NCBI GenBank assembly: GCA_019683805.1
Contig: JADGHQ010000018.1
Location: 1 to 40,458 of the forward strand
DNA: 40,458 bases
DNA from: Thermoleophilaceae bacterium
Lineage (GTDB): Bacteria > Actinomycetota > Thermoleophilia > Solirubrobacterales > Thermoleophilaceae
Direction of reading: 5' to 3'
The notes under the pieces are model-generated. The model did not search any database. It saw only the letters and a list, made by a program, of their open reading frames with translations, and had not been told where the DNA came from. Each line of letters starts with the position of its first letter. Position 1 is the first letter of the stretch. Shown here in pieces: positions 35,303 through 39,348 of this stretch. The translations under genes and the position numbers were made by a program.

Positions 35303-36988
35303 CTAGCCCCCGAGGCTTGCCTCCACCCGGCCGCGCCGGAAGCGCCCGCGCCGGCCGTGGACGGTCGCGGACCACTCCTCGGCGGCGATCGCCCCGCGCA
35401 CGAGCTCCGCGAGGCGGGCGGTCGCGCTCGCCTCGAGCCCCTCCTCGCCGAGCTGGCGGGCGAGCAGCGGCACGGTCTCGAGCGCCTCCGCTGTCTCGCG
35501 CAGCACCGCCGGGATCTCCCTGGCGGAGAGGCCCTGCGCGAGCAGCTCGCCCGCCCTGCGGTTGCGGCTGCCCTCCGCGAGCGCTGTCGCCACGAGGTCG
35601 CCCGCGCCCGCGAGCCCGGCGAACGTCTCCGGCCTCGCGCCGCGTTTGAGCGCGAGCCGCTGCGCCTCCGCGAAGACGCGCGCGGCGGCGGCGCCGGCGG
35701 CGTTCGCGCCGCGCGGCGCGGCGGCCGCCGCGGCGAGCGCAGCGGCGTTCTTCGCCGTGCCGGCGAGCTCGGTGCCGGTCACGTCGTCGGTCTGCTCAAC
35801 GTCCAGCCCGGCGTCCGCGAGCACGTTCGCAAGCTGCTGGCGCAGGTGCGGATCCTTGCCCGCGAGCACGACCGACGCGCCGACCTCGACTGCCTCCGCG
35901 GCGTGCGCCGGGCCGCCGAGCACGACGACGCCCCGCGCCGGCACGCGCTCGCCCACATAGGCCGAGGGCCGGGTGCCGAGCGGCGGCACGAGCCCCTTCG
36001 ACACGGCGAGCACGCAGGCGCGCTCGGGGATGCGCTCGCCGATCTGGGCCACGGCGGCGGGCAGCGCCGATGCGGGCACGGCGAGCGTGACGACGTCCGC
36101 CTCCTCGACGCTCAGCTCCTGCGTCGTCACGACCTTCACCGAGTCGGGCAGCTGCGTCCGCTCGCGCGCCGCCTCGACGCGCTCGCAGTCGGCCGCGGTG
36201 CGGCAGCCGAGCTCGACCTCGAGGCCGGCGCGCGCGAACAGCGTGGCGAGCGCGGTGCCCATCGGGCCGGCGCCCACGATCGCCGCGCGGCGCGCGGGCG
36301 GCAGGCCGCCGAGCCACTCCCACTGGAGCTGGATGCACGGCCACAGGCGCGCGGTGACCTCGCCGGCGAGGTGCGGCGAGGGGTGCTCGACGCGCGGGAA
36401 GGTGAGCGGGCGGCCGAAGCGCAGCCGCGCCTTCGCCGGGCGGATCCGCCAGCCCCGGCGCGCGTTCTCGGTGCCTGTCACGGCGACCGGCACTACCGGC
36501 GCGCCGCTCTCGAGCGCGAGGCGGCCGACGCCGCGCCGCGGCTTCCCGAGCGGGCCGCGGCGGATGCGCGTGCCCTCGGGGAAGATGACGACGGGCTTGC
36601 CCTGGGCGAGCAGCCGCAGGGCCGTCTCGACCATCTCCTCGTCGGACTCCCCGCGGCGCACGGGGAACGCGCCCACGGCGTTGAGGAGCCAGCCCTGGAG
36701 CGGCTTGTCGAACAGCTCGCGCTTCGCGACGAAGTAGATGGGCCTGCGCACGCAGACGCCGATCACGAACGGGTCGAGGAAGCTGCGGTGGTTCGCGGCG
36801 AGGATCATCGCGCCGCGCTTGGGGATGTGCTCGGTGCCGCGCGCGCAGACGCGGAAGTAGATGCGGATGAGGGGCTCGAGGACGGCCCTGACGATCAGGT
36901 AGACGACGGGCTGCACGCCGCGCCTGCGGATGCGCTCGTGGTGGCGCGACAGCGTGGCCGTGTCCGCGGGGGATTGGATCGACGGCAT
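35303..36988 (-). CDS. Fusion of acylglycerophosphate acyltransferase (PlsC) and glycerol-3-phosphate dehydrogenase (GpsA)
   Basis: A 561-residue two-domain protein in one uninterrupted frame. Residues about 30-228 are a PlsC-type acyltransferase: NHRSFLD (HX4D, H67 and D72), FPEGTR (136-141) and PVVPVAVTGT. Residues about 233-561 are GpsA: Rossmann AIVGAGPMGTALATLFARAG, SKGLVPPLG, GGPAHAAEAVEVGASVVLAG, the catalytic Lys region GTELAGTAKNAAALAAA, GLAGAGDLVATA and SRNR. All key residues of both parts are present. One enzyme makes glycerol-3-phosphate, the other acylates lysophosphatidate, so both feed phosphatidic acid synthesis. The ATG at 36988 is preceded by GGTAAT-N6, suggesting a leaderless start; an in-frame start 42 codons upstream would overlap the divergent gene. 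Confidence 0.95.
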   Translation of the reverse strand: MPSIQSPADTATLSRHHERIRRRGVQPVVYLIVRAVLEPLIRIYFRVCARGTEHIPKRGAMILAANHRSFLDPFVIGVCVRRPIYFVAKRELFDKPLQGWLLNAVGAFPVRRGESDEEMVETALRLLAQGKPVVIFPEGTRIRRGPLGKPRRGVGRLALESGAPVVPVAVTGTENARRGWRIRPAKARLRFGRPLTFPRVEHPSPHLAGEVTARLWPCIQLQWEWLGGLPPARRAAIVGAGPMGTALATLFARAGLEVELGCRTAADCERVEAARERTQLPDSVKVVTTQELSVEEADVVTLAVPASALPAAVAQIGERIPERACVLAVSKGLVPPLGTRPSAYVGERVPARGVVVLGGPAHAAEAVEVGASVVLAGKDPHLRQQLANVLADAGLDVEQTDDVTGTELAGTAKNAAALAAAAAAPRGANAAGAAAARVFAEAQRLALKRGARPETFAGLAGAGDLVATALAEGSRNRRAGELLAQGLSAREIPAVLRETAEALETVPLLARQLGEEGLEASATARLAELVRGAIAAEEWSATVHGRRGRFRRGRVEASLGG

Positions 36989-36994
36989 GCCCGA

Positions 36995-37024
36995 ATTACC
37001 CCTCGCGCGCGCGCGCGTTACGCT
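36995..37024. promoter_or_regulatory. Divergent promoters of plsC-gpsA and a membrane-protein gene
   Basis: On the minus strand GGTAAT (37000-36995) is followed by six bases and the ATG at 36988. On the plus strand TACGCT (37019-37024) is followed by four bases and tandem ATGs at 37029 and 37032. Between them is a CGCGCGCGCG run. Both genes look leaderless; I see no clear -35 elements. Confidence 0.45.
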
Positions 37025-37028
37025 GCGG

Positions 37029-37556
37029 ATGATGCCCTCGCGGAGGAGATCGAACGGCGCCCTGGCGGGGGCCGCGGCAGCCGCGGTGTGGGCGCTGCAG
37101 CAGCCGCTCGACAAGCGCGCCTTCCGCTGCGACTACGACGACGTGGAGCTGCTCGGCAAGGCCGTCTCTACCGACGACCGCGTGTGGCCCGCGGCGGGCG
37201 CCGCGCTGCACATCCAGAACGGAATGGCGTTCGGCGCGGTGTTCGCGCGCGTGCGTCCGCGCCTGCCGTTGAACGGCGTACTCGCGGGCGTGACCGCGGC
37301 CGTCGTGGAGCACGTGGCGCTTTGGCCGCTGGTCACGCTCACCGACCGCCTCCATCCCGCGCGCGACGAGCTGCCGAGGCTCGCGGGCAACCGCCGCGCC
37401 TGGTGGCAGGCGCTGTGGCGGCACGCACTCTTCGGCCTCGTGCTTGGGGTGCTCGAGCAGAGGCTGAACGCGGCCGAGGACGAGCGCGACCACGTCATCC
37501 CGGTCGACTCGAACGGCCACGGGGACATCGAGCGCGCGGCGGTTGCGTCGGGGTGA
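37029..37556 (+). CDS. Membrane-associated protein of unknown function
   Basis: A 175-residue protein with short hydrophobic segments (NGALAGAAAAAVWALQQPLD, AALHIQNGMAFGAVFARV, LAGVTAAVVEHVALWPLVTL, LWRHALFGLVLGVLEQRL). Polar conserved-looking patches are RAFRCDYDDVELLGKAV and NRRAWWQALWRHALF. The pattern resembles the uncharacterised actinobacterial proteins with amphipathic helices that follow lipid genes, but I cannot name the family. Two ATGs are in tandem (37029 and 37032); the -10 position favours the second for a leaderless message. It is divergent from plsC-gpsA with a 40-bp gap and precedes tRNA-Thr. Confidence 0.8.
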   Translation: MMPSRRRSNGALAGAAAAAVWALQQPLDKRAFRCDYDDVELLGKAVSTDDRVWPAAGAALHIQNGMAFGAVFARVRPRLPLNGVLAGVTAAVVEHVALWPLVTLTDRLHPARDELPRLAGNRRAWWQALWRHALFGLVLGVLEQRLNAAEDERDHVIPVDSNGHGDIERAAVASG

Positions 37557-37638: not shown

Positions 37639-37711
37639 GCCGGAGTAGCTCAGCTGGTAGAGCGACGCTCTTGTAAAGCGTGGGTCGGGGGTTCGAGTCC
37701 CCCCTCCGGCT
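37639..37711 (+). tRNA. tRNA-Thr (anticodon TGT)
   Basis: All arms fold perfectly. Acceptor GCCGGAG (37639-37645) pairs with CTCCGGC (37704-37710). The D-arm is GCTC...GAGC (37648-37663). Anticodon stem ACGCT/AGCGT encloses the loop CTTGTAA with anticodon TGT at 37672-37674. The T-arm is GGGGG-TTCGAGT-CCCCC (37687-37703). The discriminator base is T at 37711 and CCA is not encoded. It reads ACA codons, which are rare in so GC-rich a genome. Confidence 0.98.
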
Positions 37712-37978
37712 TGGGGACAGTTCTACGAACAGTTCGCAAAAGTCCACGAAAGGCCTGCAAATGCGGGCCTTTCGCGCGCAAGGCAACGGGTTCTCGCGAC
37801 GCGGCGGAGAAGGGCTCCCACACACCGGCGGCGAAAGCCCTGCAAATCGCGGAAAGCGCTGACGCGACCCGCTCGCGCACAGCCCACGCCGAGTTCCCAG
37901 CCAGGCGCCCTGCACCGCCCGGCCAGATCGGGCGCCCGGCGCTCAAAGGAGCGTCACCACGGACCCGATATAGTCGTC
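37712..37978. other. Intergenic stretch with no recognised gene
   Basis: Between tRNA-Thr and the MerR-type gene lie 375 bp without a convincing coding region. Apart from the hairpin at 37747-37774, it has short dyads (GTTC-TAC-GAAC at 37720-37730, overlapping GAAC-A-GTTC at 37727-37735) and a second, partial GCCCTGCAAATCGCG echo near 37838 of the loop region. The open frames on both strands have no family features, and those crossing the tRNA are antisense artefacts. Confidence 0.5.
37747..37774 (+). terminator. 12-bp hairpin downstream of tRNA-Thr
   Basis: CGAAAGGCCTGC (37747-37758) pairs with GCGGGCCTTTCG (37763-37774), all twelve positions with one T-G wobble, around the loop AAAT. It lies 35 bp after the tRNA and probably ends its transcript, though no T-run follows beyond TTT inside the arm. 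Confidence 0.6.
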
Positions 37979-38041
37979 GAAACCGTCTTTTCCGTCGGAA
38001 ACGTCAGAAACGTTGTTTCCGGCGATCAGAGCGGGTACGCT
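37979..38041 (+). promoter_or_regulatory. Promoter and GAAAC half-site cluster of the MerR-type gene
   Basis: GAAAC occurs at 37979-37983, 37998-38002 and 38007-38011, and its complement GTTTC at 38015-38019; GGAAAC (37997-38002) and GTTTCC (38015-38020) form an inverted pair. TTGTTT (38013-38018) and TACGCT (38036-38041) are spaced 17 bp like -35 and -10 elements. The half-sites therefore cover the -35 side, a plausible operator for the HTH protein encoded 46 bp downstream (inference). Confidence 0.55.
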
Positions 38042-38086: not shown

Positions 38087-38458
38087 ATGCTCAAGAGCAG
38101 CGACCTCGCCAAGGAGCTCCACATCTCGGAGGGGACCGTCCGCGCCTACGCCCGCGACGGGTTGATCCCGTTCGTCGAGACGCCCGGCGGTCACCGTCGC
38201 TACGTGCTCGAGGATGTCCGCGCCGCGCTGGAGATGGCCAAGAGCCATTCGCTCGAGCCGCTCGAAGAGGGCGATCAGACCCCGCGCCTGGATGAGCAGA
38301 CGCCGGCGGCGCCGCTGCGCCGTGGCCGCAGCCGTCGCCGCGGCATCACCCGCGCGGCGATCGCCGAGGCGCGCGCAGCGCAGAGCGAGACGCTGGCTCC
38401 GATCCCCTTCATCGGCGTGAAGGGCTCCAGCCGCTTCGTCGTTGGGCAGGGCGTCTAG
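38087..38458 (+). CDS. MerR-type HTH DNA-binding protein
   Basis: A 123-residue protein. Residues 1-52 are a MerR/BldC-like winged HTH: LKSSDLAKELHISEGTVRAY, RDGLIPFVETPGGHRRYVLE. There is no dimerisation coiled coil of classical MerR proteins; instead follows an acidic linker, a basic stretch (PLRRGRSRRRGITRAAIAEA) and a hydrophobic C-terminal patch (LAPIPFIGVKGSSRFVVGQG). The ATG at 38087 has GGGAG nine bases upstream; longer starts would lie over the promoter. It is followed 11 bp later by the SQDCDL gene, so both form one transcript. It could regulate that unit or act like an excisionase-type adaptor. Confidence 0.85.
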   Translation: MLKSSDLAKELHISEGTVRAYARDGLIPFVETPGGHRRYVLEDVRAALEMAKSHSLEPLEEGDQTPRLDEQTPAAPLRRGRSRRRGITRAAIAEARAAQSETLAPIPFIGVKGSSRFVVGQGV

Positions 38459-38469
38459 GAGCGGCCGGC

Positions 38470-39348
38470 GTGGAGCTCTCACACGAGCTGGACCCCCACG
38501 AGCTCAAGGCGCTCGTCAAGCAACTCCATCAAGGCGACGTGCTCGATGTCGCTAAGTCCGTGCGCTTGTACTCGCCGGATGCGCCCTCCTACCCCAACGA
38601 GGTCGCGGGCGTCCCCCACGACGAACCGGTCATGACGATGGAGACCCGGCTGCCCAGCGGCCTGTCCGTCATCGTCTCGCAGGATTGCGACCTGCGGCGC
38701 ATGCCCCATCTCGAGCCCTACGTCGTCGTCGCGCCGCTCACCGAGGTCGATGAGATCACCTACCGCGAAGCGGCCGACAACATGAGTACGCGCTTCTTCG
38801 CGTATCCCCCGATCGAGGGCCACGAGGACAAGCACAACCTCGTCGTCGACATGCGGGTCGTGTCCAGCCTGGAGAAGACCGCGCTGCTGTCCTCGCACAT
38901 CGAGCTGATTCCCTGCCCCCTCAGCGGCCCCAGGCGCGAGGACCTCCTGAACTTCCTCGGCGACCGCTTCGGCCGCAAACCCTTCCCCGACGAGATCGAG
39001 CGCCAGGTGATCCGGCCGATCGAGAGCGCTCTCAAACGTGTGCGCCAGCGCGAGGGCTTCGCCGGCGTCTTCTCGTCGGTCGTATTCGTCGGGCTGCGCT
39101 GGTCGCCCGGCAAGAGCTACTGCAGCCTCATGCTGCTGCTCGACCCCAAGCTCCGCGAGCGCCACAAGGTCGCCGACGACGACGTCGAAGCGGTCAAGGC
39201 CCGCCTGCAGAAGGCGCTCAACCACTTCACCCGCAACGGCGACTACTCGGTCATCCCGAACCTGCACGACGTGACCAAGGTCCAGGCCACCGTCGTCCTC
39301 TCGCACGACGAGATCCCCTTCGAGGTCGAGCAGCTCGAGCTCGACTGA
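38470..39348 (+). CDS. Unknown protein with SQDCDL motif
   Basis: A 292-residue soluble protein that I cannot assign to a named family. After an acidic N-terminus (MELSHELDPHELKALVKQLH) comes a beta-rich part with VIVSQDCDLRRM (S70-L75), then YVVVAPLTEVDEITYREAAD, a region with FFAYPPIEGHEDKHNLVVDM, and a helical C-terminal half (EIERQVIRPIESALKRVRQR, then KARLQKALNHF). The Cys/Asp of SQDCDL together with His residues in EGHEDKH could form an active or metal site. Codon choice has visibly more A/T-containing codons than neighbours, hinting at a different history. The GTG start at 38470 has AGGAGC upstream, 11 bp after the MerR-type gene. Confidence 0.8.
   Translation: MELSHELDPHELKALVKQLHQGDVLDVAKSVRLYSPDAPSYPNEVAGVPHDEPVMTMETRLPSGLSVIVSQDCDLRRMPHLEPYVVVAPLTEVDEITYREAADNMSTRFFAYPPIEGHEDKHNLVVDMRVVSSLEKTALLSSHIELIPCPLSGPRREDLLNFLGDRFGRKPFPDEIERQVIRPIESALKRVRQREGFAGVFSSVVFVGLRWSPGKSYCSLMLLLDPKLRERHKVADDDVEAVKARLQKALNHFTRNGDYSVIPNLHDVTKVQATVVLSHDEIPFEVEQLELD

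Follow-up and report, generated by a model that had tools for sequence, protein, structure and literature searches.

A mobile two-gene unit of a BldC-like regulator and a predicted MazF-fold effector candidate in a Thermoleophilaceae bacterium: a probable, undescribed module of toxin-antitoxin or phage-defence type

BldC binds 9-bp direct repeats in a head-to-tail fashion, and in the BldC-DNA structures each subunit takes one 9-bp direct repeat, made up of an AT-rich tract and a C-G pair (PMC5859096). The catalytic pair of the toxin MazF consists of Arg25 and Thr48 (PMC7354611), and truncated MerR-like HTH proteins have been predicted to serve as antitoxins of PIN toxins (PMC2701414). In the open-access literature we found no paper that names TIGR04255, a BldC-like toxin partner or the pair described here. 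The pair lies in a stretch of 40,458 nucleotides from a Thermoleophilaceae bacterium (the window), in which a gene for a small HTH protein is followed by a gene for a larger protein, here called T. Since the core of T is MazF-like yet differs in the key residues, the two genes probably constitute a module, as yet undescribed, of the toxin-antitoxin or phage-defence kind, a judgement that draws on sequence comparison and on structural models. The features of the locus are as follows.

37639..37711, forward strand: tRNA-Thr (anticodon TGT), found by ARAGORN, which flanks the unit
37975..38019, forward strand: five 9-bp direct repeats, CGTCGAAAC CGTCTTTTC CGTCGGAAA CGTCAGAAA CGTTGTTTC, the predicted operator of the HTH protein
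38087..38458, forward strand: HTH gene, 123 aa, with a BldC/MerR-like wHTH (residues 1-50), a linker and a C-terminal tail
38396..38455, forward strand: the C-terminal tail of the HTH protein, its last 20 residues, APIPFIGVKGSSRFVVGQGV, a candidate contact with T
38470..39348, forward strand: T gene, 292 aa, GTG start, a two-domain effector candidate
38512..38979, forward strand: predicted MazF/PemK-like domain of T, residues about 15-170, from AlphaFold2 and Foldseek on the L045 fragment
38677..38700, forward strand: signature SQDCDLRR of T, residues 70-77, a candidate active site
39079..39339, forward strand: putative ferredoxin-like alpha/beta domain of T, residues about 204-290, from weak Foldseek matches

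Open reading frames and ARAGORN agree with the layout given in the earlier note, in which a 123-residue HTH protein is followed 11 bp later by a 292-residue protein, near tRNA-Thr. The HTH gene starts 375 bp downstream of tRNA-Thr(TGT). This tRNA and the membrane gene 5' of it are kept together in many relatives, most of which are without T, and T itself turned up in no more than 3 of the 41 relatives, which makes a gain of the unit here the most likely course. An att-duplicating insertion at the tRNA was rejected, because a search downstream found no copy of the tRNA 3' end; for the same reason the vicinity of a tRNA, previously taken to hint at acquisition, carries no weight. Foreign codon use was likewise rejected. 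A less GC-extreme codon choice had been claimed for the two genes, but GC3 is 0.90 in the HTH gene and 0.93 in the T gene versus 0.91-0.97 in the neighbours, and only the total GC of the T gene is lower (0.66 vs 0.73 for the window). Searches at the unit for a sigma-70-like promoter and for a terminator found neither. The window neighbours of the pair, as read from their sequence, resemble ordinary chromosomal genes. One ORF (35303-37114, reverse strand) reads as an apparent fusion of a PlsC-type acyltransferase and a GpsA-type glycerol-3-phosphate dehydrogenase, which would let a single protein carry out two steps of phospholipid synthesis. At the contig end (40380-40458) a long poly-G run gives way to sequence of G and C only, probably an artefact of sequencing or assembly.

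Among genomes sampled from the class T is present in 12 of 399, and among those sampled from the phylum in 6 of 396; it is also present on three actinobacterial plasmids. The window T (P0002), used alone as query, retrieved nothing related from either genome or viral contigs; a five-row alignment (A1) was needed to detect distant relatives, and with this query 69 T loci were found in species genomes, in Actinomycetota, Cyanobacteriota, Pseudomonadota, Myxococcota, Planctomycetota, Acidobacteriota and other phyla. The pair is a mobile, sporadically distributed unit. Its recurrence in distant actinobacteria and on plasmids is in line with the acquired HTH-plus-effector module that had been suggested, and conservation in vertical order in all relatives is not what we found. 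Across 84 distinct loci T lies, in nearly every case, directly behind an HTH gene, with a gap or overlap of tens of bases. Two arrangements account for most of them. Type A, the window's kind, joins a MerR/BldC-like HTH gene to T (14/84 loci, one of which, in G003, retains the HTH gene as a C-terminal remnant); type B is a three-gene unit, TIGR04255-HTH-T (58/84; for example L031:4179-6486), in which TIGR04255 was confirmed by NCBIfam (E 3e-52) and the HTH protein (HTH-B) is Xre-like and weakly similar to antitoxin HTH models. HTH-B and T occur without TIGR04255 at 5/84 loci, and the partner of T is unresolved at 7/84, which are mostly contig-edge, truncated or degenerate. TIGR04255 is absent from type A loci and from the window genome. 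The type-A T proteins, all from Actinomycetota, fall together on one side of a branch with support 94/89. The presence of two HTH types in the same slot suggests that T needs a DNA-binding partner.

Neither T nor HTH-B matched any PADLOC model. The genes that flank the T loci include some type I methyltransferases, resolvases and AAA/AbiEii-like ATPases; taken as a whole, the scan of these flanks returned mixed genes, mostly of ordinary metabolism, with no clear signal of a defence island, which had been put forward as a place to look for the pair. A few flanking proteins somewhere among the T loci (alignment A5) match mad2, mad3, mad8 or type I methyltransferases. A further type-B unit, outside the 84-locus count, lies on a prophage-like viral contig from IMG/VR (L147:3127-5690), directly behind genes that read from their sequence as endolysin-like and holin-like; the site beside lysis genes is a frequent position of prophage cargo genes. 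Two species of genus g4 (loci L002 and L003, genomes G003 and G017) each have a broken module, and the breakage differs between them. The DNA-binding part of the HTH protein and the promoter are deleted in G003, where T is intact, 86% identical to the window T and next to ArsR-type and metal-ATPase-like genes; in G017 only the last 85 codons of T remain. The flanks of the module in G003 and G017 are 99.5% identical.

T is a real coding gene under purifying selection: against the G003 relative dN/dS is 0.08/0.58 = 0.14, and codon positions 1, 2 and 3 are identical at 91, 94 and 68%, respectively. It has no match in Pfam, NCBIfam, PHROGs or PADLOC, and PemK is absent from Pfam scans of 57 members of the T family. 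Profile searches place T in no known family, housekeeping families included; structure prediction points to a MazF/PemK-like N-terminal domain. The SQDCDL motif, to which the earlier note had drawn attention, proved to be part of a family signature: the 57-sequence T alignment shows no variation at Q71, C73, D74, R77, P83 and R169 and almost none at D127 and K136. The His-rich EGHEDKH patch, remarked on alongside it, is not conserved in this alignment (the nearest relative has EGHEHQQ), and a metal site at the patch was rejected on that account.

A MazF/PemK fold was proposed from the order of motifs in T (QGD, VV.(S/T)Q.CD, VaPL and, later, D..V..V.K plus a helix) before any fold search. The AlphaFold2 model of the whole protein, built from the 57-row alignment, has a pLDDT of 82.8; Foldseek matched its C-terminal half only, weakly, with the MamM CTD (TM of target about 0.6, E 0.02-0.06), and MazF was not among the best 50 matches of this model. 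The N-terminal domain was therefore modelled alone, as a fragment of the type-B homologue L045, and it is this fragment, not the window T by itself, that provides the evidence for the fold. The isolated domain gave a pLDDT of 96.6, and 50 of 50 among the PDB matches listed by Foldseek belong to the MazF family (MazF/YdcE/MoxT), the best with E 1.6e-4, prob 1.00 and a TM of target of about 0.6. An HHalign comparison of T with 30 PemK proteins was colinear over the whole domain but fell short of significance, with P about 0.05 and a probability of about 1%, so that the relation between T and MazF rests on structure. Modelling in this way makes a strong case that the predicted N-terminal domain has a MazF/PemK-type fold. 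The positions aligned to the MazF Arg (of the RP motif) and Thr vary across the T family, the window T having G and T there, and in their place the family has the invariant motif Q-x-C-D-x-x-R. Since the MazF Arg and Thr are not conserved, RNase activity of T cannot be assumed.

The HTH protein (P0001) is of the MerR type, as had been proposed, with Pfam matches to MerR (1.1e-8) and HTH_17 (2.7e-8), both above cut-off. It matches the NCBIfam BldC model with E 2.8e-9 and 36.7 bits, below the curated cut-off of 77, and its sequence matches in the PDB are to 6ama/6amk (E about 0.006), which we take to be the crystal structures of BldC. All sequence and profile matches are confined to the wHTH; the protein is MerR-like and lacks the coiled-coil dimerisation helix. 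The non-standard C-terminus seen earlier is real, and type-A HTH proteins have a short C-terminal tail in common, most of the 14 aligned sharing the pattern ..LF..AR.VLV..G. We infer that this tail is a candidate for contact with T. The unit had also been credited with its own promoter carrying repeated half-sites; the repeats are real, and they are best read not as half-sites but as five 9-bp direct repeats. The 9-bp array was first spotted by eye in upstream sequences and then tested across the type-A loci. The self-match of the window promoter at period 9 has a z of 2.9, and the mean z over 14 type-A upstream regions is 2.3 at period 9, against 0.5 or less at all other periods from 5 to 15. 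Such arrays are present in most type-A promoters and absent in some loci (for example L006, L010 and L012). As far as sequence can tell, the HTH protein probably controls its own operon via the 9-bp array. The array units vary by module (L005, L007, L008, L022), being TGCAAAA/TGCAAAC in some and CGTGAAA/CGTC..AAA in others, which suggests that operator specificity is diverging among type-A modules.

Our best explanation, which we regard as evenly poised between right and wrong, is that of a TA-like module, in which a BldC-like regulator would control its own operon and restrain a MazF-fold effector. This explanation builds on the computed operon structure, recurrence of the pair, core fold of T, 9-bp arrays, purifying selection and mobile distribution. 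The BldC-like protein probably assembles head-to-tail as a multimer on the 9-bp array of its own promoter, and the bound multimer would repress the operon; the C-terminal tail of the HTH protein would bind T and keep it inactive. If the HTH protein were lost or titrated, for example under stress or on phage infection, T would be freed and could act on RNA or another core target, bringing growth to a stop. The short operon, with a small DNA-binding protein directly before the effector and conserved as a unit in the 84-locus census, argues for this explanation, as does the sporadic, mobile distribution over relatives, class, phylum, plasmids and the prophage-like contig, and the predicted PIN-MerR pairs (PMC2701414) set a precedent for MerR-like antitoxins. 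Against it, toxins are usually far smaller than T, a third gene is present in type B (TIGR04255, a named family of unknown function), the catalytic Arg and Thr of MazF are not conserved and the sequence similarity to PemK is not significant. Moreover, G003 keeps an intact T without the DNA-binding part of the HTH protein and without the promoter; an autonomously lethal T is hard to reconcile with this, unless the gene is silent there.

Phage defence is a close rival of the toxin-antitoxin reading and does not exclude it. It is possible, if on the unlikely side, that the pair acts by abortive infection, in that the HTH protein would keep the operon low, infection would induce it and T would stop phage growth; with the same tentativeness, TIGR04255 may act with T in type B, the actinobacterial pair being a reduced or parallel version. 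The type-B unit beside the lysis-like genes of the prophage-like contig, the methyltransferases, resolvases and AAA/AbiEii-like ATPases among some neighbours and the sporadic occurrence over many phyla all speak for an anti-phage role, but the neighbours of T loci are mixed and many are metabolic, PADLOC models match neither T nor HTH-B, and the genes around the pair in the window look like ordinary chromosomal ones. The lack of conservation of the MazF catalytic residues would also fit a regulatory pair, which we hold to be decidedly doubtful. Here T would bind a ligand or nucleic acid and, as a co-regulator, modulate the action of the BldC-like multimer at its own promoter, and would combine, with as little likelihood, a MazF-type barrel devoid of MazF activity with a ferredoxin-like sensor domain. 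The weak likeness in fold of the C-terminal domain of T to the metal-binding MamM CTD, and the T of G003, without the DNA-binding part of its HTH partner and beside ArsR-type and metal-ATPase-like genes, are consistent with such a role; however, the invariant Q/C/D/R cluster resembles an active site, and in type B the type of HTH partner changes and T stays. To our knowledge, regulators of this kind seldom travel as isolated pairs across phyla, which also counts against it. That the pair is an ordinary accessory one which is decaying and no longer serves any function in this genome appears very improbable: the loci of genus g4 are indeed broken in two different ways, but in the window both genes are intact, T has a dN/dS of 0.14 and the 9-bp array is present.

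A bolder reading is one that we advance tentatively and think rather unlikely to hold: T may found a class of its own among MazF-fold effectors, one whose active site is Gln-Cys-Asp-Arg and whose chemistry is not mRNA cleavage, employed across many phyla in an undescribed TIGR04255-HTH-T phage-defence or toxin system, of which actinobacteria would have a two-gene version with a BldC-like multimer on 9-bp repeats. If true, the MazF-type toxin fold would be extended to a new active site, and BldC-like proteins would gain a role as toxin-antitoxin regulators. In any event, T and the HTH partner of type B, both of them sets of proteins without a name, are joined with TIGR04255 into operons that recur in many phyla. 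T gains a predicted fold and a candidate active site, and the regulator a predicted, specific mode of DNA binding. The TIGR04255-HTH-T operon of most type-B loci merits a study of its own.

Among the described systems compared with the pair is MADS. The HTH domain matches mad1 (Mad1, PADLOC PDLC04133; E 6e-11), the generic BldC-like HTH being the sole part in common, and membership of MADS was rejected, as T matches no PADLOC model and the immediate neighbours look ordinary. The sporadic TIGR04255 family provides gene 1 of the type-B unit, with T as gene 3; type A and the window genome differ from type B in having no TIGR04255. The predicted PIN-MerR pairs (PMC2701414) are alike in that a MerR-like wHTH protein without the dimerisation helix, with a small extra region, is encoded next to a toxin-fold gene, as here, but their toxin is a PIN nuclease and their extra region N-terminal, whereas here a MazF-type barrel is predicted and the extra region is C-terminal. 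The BldC family (PMC5859096) resembles the HTH protein in the sequence of the wHTH, in the 6ama/6amk matches and in the 9-bp promoter arrays; in contrast to BldC, the HTH protein has about 70 additional residues with the shared C-terminal tail, adjoins one dedicated partner gene and scores below the curated BldC cut-off. Finally, the MazF/PemK/Kid mRNA interferases (PF02452; MazEF type II TA) have, according to the models, their fold in common with the N-terminal domain of T. The order and spacing of GD.., VV.(S/T)., VaPL. and the C-terminal D..V..V.K-helix are the same in both, and in each case the gene is second in its short operon, after that of a DNA-binding protein. Unlike MazF/PemK, T shows no significant sequence match to that family and has an extra, putatively ferredoxin-like domain; it carries the invariant Q-x-C-D-x-x-R and does not conserve the catalytic Arg25/Thr48 pair of MazF (PMC7354611), and its partner is a MerR/BldC or Xre-like HTH protein, not an antitoxin of the AbrB, RHH or Phd kind.
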